Of a stretch of 56,235 nucleotides of DNA, positions 4,290 to 40,483 are shown piece after piece. Origin of the DNA: Candidatus Aminicenantota bacterium. Lineage in GTDB: Bacteria > Acidobacteriota > Aminicenantia > Aminicenantales > CALLJL01. Numbering within the stretch: the stretch's first letter is position 1; each line of letters starts with the position of its first letter. The notes below the pieces were generated by a model. It worked only from the letters and a program-made list of their open reading frames with translations, was not told the origin of the DNA and searched no databases. Made by a program: the position numbers and the translations under genes. The DNA is taken from the NCBI GenBank assembly GCA_026416195.1, contig JAOAFQ010000004.1, forward strand, positions 1 through 56,235, written 5' to 3'.

Positions 4290-4817
4290 TCAATATTTCC
4301 CATCCATTCTAAATTCAGAGGTATCGAGCCAAAAGCCATTATTCTGAAGAGAATCTAATTGGGCTTGCAACAAGTCATAATGAAATCTTTCCTCATTAAC
4401 AATTCTTTCAAAAATCTCTTTAGTTCTTTCTTCAGAACAAGCAGACACACCTTGTTGGAAATGGTCAATAGCTTTCCTTTCCAACTCAAGGCCGATAGAA
4501 AGAGCTTCGAGATCGCTCTTGCCACTCGCTCCTTTCATCCGGCTAACTAGGCTTTCAATCACCTCCGAGTTTTCCTTTAAATCTTCAGAGGAAATCTCTT
4601 TTCGCCAATCTTCGTTCCCTATGATCTCGGTAAAAAGATGGGCAAAAGTTTCCAAATGCCTCACTTCTTCTTTGGCAAGATGTTCAAACATCTTGCGGCC
4701 AAGGTTATTTTGGGTTAATTCGGCCGCTTTAAGAAAAAATTCTTTGCCTCGAATTTCGAGTTTAAGAGCCTCTTTTAACAGCCATTTAAGATTAGGATCA
4801 TTTAATTTGGTCATCAC
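4290..4817 (-). CDS. Ferritin-like diiron protein (rubrerythrin-family, no rubredoxin domain)
   Basis: Two four-helix halves with conserved Glu and ExxH motifs (EEVRH, EERFH). Confidence 0.8.
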   Translation of the reverse strand: MMTKLNDPNLKWLLKEALKLEIRGKEFFLKAAELTQNNLGRKMFEHLAKEEVRHLETFAHLFTEIIGNEDWRKEISSEDLKENSEVIESLVSRMKGASGKSDLEALSIGLELERKAIDHFQQGVSACSEERTKEIFERIVNEERFHYDLLQAQLDSLQNNGFWLDTSEFRMDGKY

Positions 4818-38141: not shown

Positions 38142-38339
38142 CTAAATTTTCTTTAAAATAGGCATCCCAGTTTTCGGAGTTTCGACCACTTTAAACCCTT
38201 CGGGAAGAGCATCAAGAGCACCGGGACGGATCTCTCGAGCAAAATAATAAATGGTTTGCTTTCGACCTCCTTTGAGGCTAACTTCACGCGAATGAAGATA
38301 ATAGGTAATTCCCTTCGAATTTTTGAATTCATAAGCCAT
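38142..38339 (-). CDS. Conserved small hypothetical protein (65 aa)
   Basis: MAYEFKNSKGITYYLHSREVSLKGGRKQTIYYFAREIRP...; purine-rich region (GGAGG) upstream of start. Confidence 0.7.
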   Translation of the reverse strand: MAYEFKNSKGITYYLHSREVSLKGGRKQTIYYFAREIRPGALDALPEGFKVVETPKTGMPILKKI

Positions 38340-38581
38340 GGTTAAACCTCCATCAGATTTATTTTCCTAAAAATAAAACTTAAATTTATCTTCAATAGAT
38401 TGGCTTTGTCTTTGTCCATATTTAGGATTAATAAAAACCCTCGCCTCTTCCCAAGAGTTTTCAATCCTAACTCCTTTCGACTTGAAAGCTGATAATGCTG
38501 ACGAGCAAAAAGTTTAATCGTCAGGCCTGTTGAAGTAAATATAAAAAACTAAATCTTCTGTCAAGGAAATTTCTTCTCTTT

Positions 38582-39007
38582 TTAATCAGTTTTTTTGGAT
38601 TCAAACTCAGCCAGCGTTTCCGCATAAATAGGTGGAATTAATTTTAAAAGAGGCACTAGCCGAGAAGCTTTAGCCATATTTCCAGAGATTTTAAGTTTTC
38701 CAGAAATAAGAGTGGCAAAAATATCCTTTTTCCCAGACCAAAGTTCATCAAGCGTCGAGGCGGCCATTTCTAAAGTTAAATCAGGTTCAGGTCCTTCTTC
38801 CCCAAAATAAGACCTTGGGGTGGAGGTTGAAGGCTGGCTCATCGATTGAGCATCAATTTTTATCGAGGCCTTAGGCTCAGTTAATCGAATTTGAAGGATA
38901 AGGTCAGAATTTTTCAGGGCCGAACATGCTTCAAAGTGCGAACCAACTTTATCTAAAAAAATCTCGAAAAAATTTCTAACTTCTTGTTCATCTTTGAAAA
39001 TCGCCAT
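38582..39007 (-). CDS. SCP2 sterol-binding-domain-like protein
   Basis: PDLTLEMAASTLDELWSGKKDIFATLISGKLKISGNMAKASRLVPLLKLI. Confidence 0.75.
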   Translation of the reverse strand: MAIFKDEQEVRNFFEIFLDKVGSHFEACSALKNSDLILQIRLTEPKASIKIDAQSMSQPSTSTPRSYFGEEGPEPDLTLEMAASTLDELWSGKKDIFATLISGKLKISGNMAKASRLVPLLKLIPPIYAETLAEFESKKTD

Positions 39008-39033
39008 TGTTTCCTCCTTTAAAATTTTTAAAA

Positions 39034-39324
39034 TTAATGAACAAAGCCAACCGGTGGGGGCATATCGGCTGGAGTTATTGGTCCGTATTCAGCTTCATAG
39101 CGTTGAACATTAGCTATTAAGGCCTCCATAAAACGTTTCGCATGGGCTGGGCTTAAAATTAATCGAGCTACTAATTTCCCCATAGGGCCATCAGGAAAAA
39201 TAAAGGCAAAATCAAAAATAAATTCCTCTCGAGAATGACGAATGGCTGCTAAATTAGAATATTGGCCGAGGGCCACATTTTCATCGACCTTAATATCAAT
39301 TTTCTCGATCTTCTTTTGCTCCAT
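39034..39324 (-). CDS. DUF3467 family protein
   Basis: ENVALGQYSNLAAIRHSREEFIFDFAFIFPD ... ARLILSPAHAKRFMEALIANVQRYEAEYG. Confidence 0.85.
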   Translation of the reverse strand: MEQKKIEKIDIKVDENVALGQYSNLAAIRHSREEFIFDFAFIFPDGPMGKLVARLILSPAHAKRFMEALIANVQRYEAEYGPITPADMPPPVGFVH

Positions 39325-39385
39325 CGATTTTCCCTCCCGTTTTTATCTTATTTTAAAACAATTTTAAAGCCAATTAAAAAATATC

Positions 39386-39414
39386 TTTACAAAAGCATTT
39401 TTGTATGATATAAA
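39386..39414 (+). promoter_or_regulatory. Putative sigma70-type promoter of an intergenic RNA
   Basis: TTTACA (39386-39391), 17-nt spacer, TATAAA (39409-39414); predicted +1 at about 39421. Confidence 0.55.
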
Positions 39415-39420
39415 GTATAT

Positions 39421-39500
39421 GGCTTTCTCGGGCGGGCTGGAGAAAGCCCCCACCTTTTTGGTTCCCATCATCAACCCCCCTTTTGCTGACAACAGCCCGC
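39421..39500 (+). ncRNA. Candidate structured small RNA with hairpin-loop pseudoknot (3' end undetermined)
   Basis: Stem GGCTTTCTC (39421-39429) / GAGAAAGCC (39440-39448); loop GCGGGCTG (39432-39439) is perfectly complementary to CAGCCCGC (39493-39500). Confidence 0.45.
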
Positions 39501-39565
39501 ACTTATAATGGATTTTCCCTCTCGCTTGCTTTCTATTCGGTCAAGCAGGCTAGGCCTAGATTGAA

Positions 39566-40483
39566 TTAATTGATCGGCTCCCCTTCTGGGTAATCTTTTA
39601 AAATTTCAGCCGGAATTTCCATCACCTTGGTCCAACCTCCCAATCTTTGGAGAACCTGGGGTGAAGTCAGAGGTCTCTTTTTTCCTTTTTCAATAAGATA
39701 GACAGGCCTGTTGGCGCCGCTTCCAAGTTCCATAACTAAACAACCTTCAAAGTTGAGATCAATCAGCTCACCATCAGGTAAGCTGGAAAGAATTTCATCG
39801 GAAACGATCGCCAAATATTTCCACGGGTCCTTCCCTCTCTTCTGGTTATAGTTATAGCGATAAAGGCTTTCGAGATTTTTAAAGGCCCGACGGACATACA
39901 GGCCAGGCCCTCGACGCTCAATCATATAAACAGTCTGATTCGCGCCCTTAACATATTTCTGATGAAGATAAGCCAAATTATCTTCAACCGGCCATGAGGA
40001 AAACTCACGATCTAACCGATCAAGAAGTCGACGACAATCACCTAGAGCATAGGGTACAAGACTTGATTCGCGCATTTCTTTTTCCAATTCATAAAAGAAG
40101 CGAGTAAGATAAATAAAGGCCTGAAAGAGATTGGTTCTCAAATATTGAGTCGAAAAATAACCCGATCTTTCTTCAGTCAATCGGATAAAAAGTCGGCAGG
40201 AAGCGGCAAAGGCTTCAGCTTTAAATAAGATAGCTTGCTCCTTTTCGGTAATCAGACCCCTTCGGCCTTTAAAATATTGAAAAGTATCTTCCGCTAAAGC
40301 TGTGGCCAATTTTTCTAAATCGATGGCCAAATTAAGAATAGCGGTTCGACGGTCAGCCGCCATGGCCGCTTCTATGGTCACTCTTGGAAGACCAGTAAAA
40401 CAAAAGAAAATAAAAAAGCTAAACCAAAACCTACTGAAAGGAAGTTTAAAAAAGAAAATTGGTTTAAAGTTTAAAACCTTCAT
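39566..40483 (-). CDS. Secreted hypothetical protein with duplicated C-terminal VYxIExG...PxGExI repeat
   Basis: Signal-like N-terminus; C-terminal units VYMIERRGPGLYVRR...DEILSSLPDGELI and VYLIEKGKKRPLTSPQVLQRLGGWTKVMEIPAEILKDYPEGEPI. Confidence 0.75.
   Translation of the reverse strand: MKVLNFKPIFFFKLPFSRFWFSFFIFFCFTGLPRVTIEAAMAADRRTAILNLAIDLEKLATALAEDTFQYFKGRRGLITEKEQAILFKAEAFAASCRLFIRLTEERSGYFSTQYLRTNLFQAFIYLTRFFYELEKEMRESSLVPYALGDCRRLLDRLDREFSSWPVEDNLAYLHQKYVKGANQTVYMIERRGPGLYVRRAFKNLESLYRYNYNQKRGKDPWKYLAIVSDEILSSLPDGELIDLNFEGCLVMELGSGANRPVYLIEKGKKRPLTSPQVLQRLGGWTKVMEIPAEILKDYPEGEPIN

Follow-up and report, generated by a model that had tools for sequence, protein, structure and literature searches.

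What is the short hairpin that follows a promoter between two minus-strand genes of a Candidatus Aminicenantota bacterium, and what could it do? It lies in the window, by which we mean the whole stretch of 56,235 nt analyzed here (contig JAOAFQ010000004.1 of assembly GCA_026416195.1, positions 1 to 56,235). An initial annotation proposed a small RNA, not yet annotated, that has a hairpin at the predicted +1 and a loop pseudoknot, and comparison with relatives bears this out: the element is conserved, both of its helices covary and its promoter is conserved. Judged from sequence comparison, the feature is far beyond chance and is a genuine small RNA gene, knotted and not named before. It represents a lineage-wide RNA family that has strong comparative support, is missing from Rfam and occurs in widespread, mostly uncultured bacteria.

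Layout of the RNA gene

The 84-nt RNA gene occupies positions 39420-39503 of the plus strand. Its parts and the genes on either side are as follows.

39034-39324, minus strand: gene of a DUF3467 protein (Pfam PF11950, E 1.9e-23), the divergent upstream neighbor, outside the RNA
39386-39414, plus strand: sigma-70-type promoter (TTTACA 39386-39391, 17-nt spacer, TATAAA 39409-39414), assigned from the sequence and the fixed -10 position among relatives
39421-39448, plus strand: P1 hairpin of 9 bp (39421-39429 with 39440-39448), its base at the predicted +1, assigned from covariation
39432-39439, plus strand: 5′ strand of P2, GCGGGCTG, within the P1 loop, assigned from a complement search and covariation in 66 members
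39449-39492, plus strand: C/U-rich linker of 44 nt, subtype A, CCCACCUUUUUGGUUCCCAUCAUCAACCCCCCUUUUGCUGACAA, assigned from identity in subtype A; presumably single-stranded
39493-39500, plus strand: 3′ strand of P2, CAGCCCGC, which completes the pseudoknot, assigned from covariation; conservation ends right after it
39501-39512, plus strand: probable 3′ end, an A followed by a short pyrimidine-rich tail, weak in the window copy
39566-40483, minus strand: gene of an uncharacterized 305-aa protein

The promoter hexamers, the 9-bp hairpin that begins 6 nt after TATAAA and the complement between its loop and a downstream strand had all been noted initially, and each can be read directly in the window. 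P1 is formed by the arms GGCTTTCTC (39421-39429) and GAGAAAGCC (39440-39448) around the loop GGGCGGGCTG (39430-39439), and the two P2 strands are perfect 8-bp complements 53 nt apart.

Among the members of the family, the -10 hexamer is found at a constant site about 10-13 nt upstream of the RNA start and the -35 is mostly TTGATT or TTTACA; a combined -10/-35 match of at least 9 of 12 positions occurs in 86% of members vs 5.5% of shuffles. The window's own TTTACA-17-TATAAA is not among the sites listed by a generic promoter scan of the window, because stricter rules were applied there, and the comparative test outweighs that scan. At the other end, a terminator scan found no clear terminator downstream of the window RNA, as the initial annotation had said. 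Over all loci, the intrinsic terminator score exceeds 10 in 19%, vs 2.6% of shuffles, and the majority have nothing past P2 except the short pyrimidine tail: C/U makes up 83% of the 5 nt after the A in all members and is at background level beyond about 12 nt.

In single-sequence folding, the energy of the window strand is unremarkable relative to shuffles (z = -0.07), and the nested prediction forms P2 with P1 disrupted. Thus, the support for this RNA is comparative, not thermodynamic.

Covariation and distribution

A 191-base query (39380-39570) matches 54 of 59 relatives and all 25 sampled genera, and the identity spans the entire RNA and ends just past P2. When 66 members are aligned (alignment A3), 98.4% of the P1 and P2 cells are paired and 130 changes are two-sided; shuffles give 36 ± 9 such changes, and controls with slid partners no more than 21. 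In P1, both sides have changed at seven of the nine pairs, 98.1% of cells being paired, and in 62 of the 66 members an octamer exactly complementary to that of the loop lies 27-57 nt past P1. The family comprises subtypes that have a common scaffold and different linkers, and P2 varies with them: it is GCGGGCTG/CAGCCCGC, GCCGGCTG/CAGCCGGC or GCTGGCTG/CAGCCAGC, the loop strand being GCGGGCTG in subtype A, GCCGGCTG in subtypes B and C and GCTGGCTG in subtype D, so that pair 3 is G-C, C-G or U-A depending on the subtype. The first alignment (A1) had been selected on P2. The U-A pair of subtype D was not in A1 and therefore provides an independent test of P2, which P2 passed. At one locus (L047) the linker carries a deletion and P2 is restored as GCGGGCCG/CGGCCCGC. 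A further 21 members have 7-9 P1 pairs each and a perfect P2 in all except one; in one of these members, the first G-C of P2 is replaced by A-U.

Could this conservation be that of a protein? A microprotein gene on the minus strand, in which AAAAGGGGGGTTGATGATGGGAACC..., a Shine-Dalgarno-like site, would be followed by a short open frame, can be drawn in the window, where a frame of 42 aa is present. However, linker lengths that differ by one base shift the frame (L026, L056), stops occur in all six frames (in 13 to 52 of the 66 members, depending on the frame), the promoter lies on the plus strand and the changes are accounted for by covariation of the helices. Coding conservation, which the initial annotation had named as one finding that would speak against an RNA, is thus not seen; the microprotein reading is disfavored and almost certainly wrong.

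How widely is the RNA distributed? Two covariance models were used, in both of which the P2 columns were scored as plain sequence, not as pairs. Model R1, with P1 as the sole helix, found the RNA in 90 of the 94 genomes of the order and in all 35 genera; model R2, which includes the later-found subtypes, found it in 93 of the 94 genomes of the order (Candidatus Aminicenantes), with 1-17 copies in each. The only R2 match outside the order was in one genome (G118) from another family of the same class. In a sample of 396 genomes of the phylum at E ≤ 0.001, covariance E-values being rough, the matches were 28 members of the order and G118, leaving 367 genomes without one. Weak matches outside the order in four genomes (G300, G305, G285 and G062) were dropped since P2 is missing, and weak BLAST matches in other classes (L061-L065) lack the structure. 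The genome of the window has three copies: the window RNA, G000:C60:3385-3471 and G000:C220:6641-6725.

A pattern for subtypes B and C, scanned against genome contigs totaling 257 billion bases, returned 35 stretches, mostly in records titled Candidatus Aminicenantes, and all 35 show the hairpin and the linker on inspection. Three of them are in records titled Thermoplasmata, Nitrospirota and "bacterium"; these records may be mis-binned, or the distribution of the RNA may be slightly wider. Family members are seen at positions 423-490 of locus L159, from a 5.2-Mb record titled Thermoplasmata archaeon (CP070751.1), and at 222-291 of L163, from a Nitrospirota-titled record (JAOUJR010000158.1), both of which are probably mislabeled or mixed bins.

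Linkers and possible functions

The linker is where the subtypes part. All linkers are poor in G (5-9%) and rich in C/U (69-73%), the longest being those of subtype D. Among 30 distinct members of subtype A, mean pairwise identity reaches 98% both in the linker and in the 3′ strand of P2 and 83% in the P1 region; it is 47% upstream and 30% downstream. The motif CCCCCUUUUGCU occurs in 30 of 30 A linkers and 14 of 24 B/C linkers (expected 0.00), and the anti-Shine-Dalgarno sequence CCCUCCUU in 20 of 30 D linkers vs 0.27 expected. CCUCC is present in 23 of 30 D linkers, with three CCUCC blocks in a D form from the window's own genome (L240), and in none of the 54 A/B/C linkers (0/30 in A alone), about 13 of which would be expected to bear it from composition.

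We propose that the RNA is a trans-acting sRNA of a new family, whose H-type pseudoknot would present a single-stranded pairing segment, a proposal to which we give about an even chance; that it regulates other genes via the exposed C/U-rich stretch is probable. An outline of the proposed process is as follows: transcription would begin at the base of P1, and P1 (9 bp) and P2 (8 bp) would form an H-type pseudoknot that keeps the 27-57-nt G-poor, C/U-rich linker single-stranded. The linker would be the working part, pairing with mRNA segments that are rich in purines and resemble ribosome-binding sites, perhaps assisted by Hfq, and this pairing would lower translation of the target mRNAs. In the paralogues, the scaffold would be held constant and the linker changed, and with it the targets, from CCCUCCUU in D to CCCCCUUUUGCU in A/B. 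The comparison establishes the gene, its promoter, the two helices, the distribution, the subtypes and the conservation of the linker, whereas expression, the single-stranded state of the linker, its pairing with mRNA and the chaperone are what we infer here. GGAGG-type Shine-Dalgarno sites are in use in the lineage and Hfq is present in 18 of 21 relatives; together with the constant scaffold, the exchangeable linkers and the anti-Shine-Dalgarno motif of D, they favor antisense action at ribosome-binding sites, a mode of control demonstrated for NfeR1 in rhizobia (PMC10746234).

Which mRNAs would be paired? In target tests based on gene starts from a simple script and covering about 0.86 Mb, GGGGG was not enriched at start sites of the lineage, the subtype A linker paired with start sites no better than shuffled linkers did, and its exact complements upstream of start codons, the RNA itself excluded, were few and had no recurring position. 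The start site of the adjoining DUF3467 gene is not a target of subtype A at the four loci where it could be placed. Two single cases were set aside. In genome G029, the start site at C4:1016433-1016451 (minus strand) of a secreted-looking protein (MIKNLKALLLI...) contains GCAAAAGGGGGGG, which exactly complements the A/B linker core and is not recurrent; in G038, a short frame that pairs strongly as a candidate target likewise has no recurrence.

The main rival to the antisense reading is protein binding, which we regard as possible but doubtful: the C/U-rich strand displayed by the pseudoknot would sequester a protein or guide it, such as Hfq, ribosomal protein S1, a cold-shock protein or Rho, the RNA serving as a sponge or forming a stable ribonucleoprotein, and the paralogues would supply dosage or variants. 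The C/U-rich, G-poor composition, the presence of up to 17 copies per genome and the lack of mRNA targets found for subtype A are in its favor, as is the near-invariance of the entire 44-nt A linker across the order, which exceeds the need of a short antisense seed. On the other hand, each subtype has its own sharp motif, one of them an exact anti-Shine-Dalgarno sequence, and CCUCC is missing from the A/B/C linkers against the expectation from composition; distinct motifs fit separate pairing targets better than a single common protein. A broader idea, rather unlikely as it stands, is that one scaffold with duplicated paralogues and cassette-like linkers constitutes a new class, of global RNA regulators or of ribonucleoprotein RNAs, near-universal in Aminicenantes, in which one subtype would mimic the anti-Shine-Dalgarno tail of the ribosome and the ultraconserved subtype A would bind a dedicated partner. 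Concrete predictions about the control of translation follow from a scaffold whose single-stranded cassettes can be exchanged and include an exact anti-Shine-Dalgarno sequence.

Known RNAs, neighboring genes and copies

Does the RNA belong to a known class? The initial annotation recognized none, and Rfam 15 agrees: no family reaches its gathering score over the region, a lax search giving only matches far below gathering scores. A full-text search of one literature collection found no relevant report of a non-coding RNA in Aminicenantes. In the broad sense the RNA resembles a trans-acting sRNA in that it has its own promoter, lies outside any gene leader, is conserved in structure and is non-coding. 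The nearest parallel is with alpha-r14 or cuckoo RNA, a clade-restricted sRNA family whose stems covary and whose unpaired regions hold ultraconserved anti-Shine-Dalgarno motifs rich in C and U; its Sinorhizobium member, NfeR1, uses unpaired CCUCCUCCC motifs to silence mRNAs (PMC10746234). Both RNAs are stand-alone and clade-limited, and subtype D likewise has an anti-Shine-Dalgarno motif in a presumably unpaired region. However, the alpha-r14 motif is carried by three hairpins, whereas here there is one hairpin and a pseudoknot whose linker holds the motif; measured against CCUCCUCCC, no A linker and 23 of 30 D linkers contain CCUCC, the latter in a different fold. Alpha-r14 belongs to another phylum, with no known sequence relation to the Aminicenantes RNA. 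As to 6S RNA, it is also a stand-alone gene, near-universal within its clade, but it has another fold, a long hairpin with bulges and about 180 nt in length. Searches of 25 genomes from the order, among them the one that contains the window, gave no match to the model RF00013; 6S RNA is either too diverged there for the model or absent.

A resemblance to the pistol ribozyme had been pointed out initially. The topology of a loop pseudoknot close to the 5′ end is indeed shared, and the likeness stops there: the RNA has two helices only, their lengths differ and the pistol covariance model gives no match in the Rfam searches. The ribozyme reading is thus unsupported and disfavored. The H-type pseudoknot riboswitches preQ1-I and SAM-II also have a hairpin loop that pairs with a downstream strand, but they are cis leaders with compact ligand-binding loops, whereas the Aminicenantes RNA is stand-alone, has a promoter to itself and a linker of 27-57 nt, and is not positioned as a leader ahead of a regulated gene.

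What, then, of action in cis on a neighboring gene, as a riboswitch, leader or attenuator? The DUF3467 gene, the commonest upstream neighbor of subtype A, could suggest it, since it adjoins the RNA at 26 loci, divergently upstream and 51-597 nt away. Its transcription, however, runs away from the RNA, the genes downstream in the window are on the opposite strand, and neighbors vary between copies, subtypes and families. The riboswitch-like element suggested at first is disfavored on these grounds, and cis action in general is very unlikely. Near subtype A, a conserved 65-aa protein without a Pfam match also recurs, at 23 loci. In the window, its gene and the DUF3467 gene lie within 38142-39324 of the minus strand with an SCP2-domain gene between them, and no link of these genes with the RNA was found.

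The several dispersed copies per genome might also be taken for the ends of a mobile element or for a phage-borne RNA spread by transposition. Against this, subtype A is mainly single-copy with a conserved gene context, no transposase-like neighbor recurs among the clusters listed and viral contigs gave no match, so that such an origin is extremely unlikely. In several genomes (L031, L032, L048 and L049), copies of subtypes B and C follow one another in tandem at a distance of about 60-135 nt, and each copy of a tandem pair has a separate promoter; these tandem copies are located downstream of a conserved gene resembling glycerate kinase. At another locus (L037), the copies at 1392-1475 and 4295-4378 are almost identical, have similar flanks and are surrounded by paralogues from a single gene family, an arrangement that points to a recent tandem duplication of the RNA plus gene.
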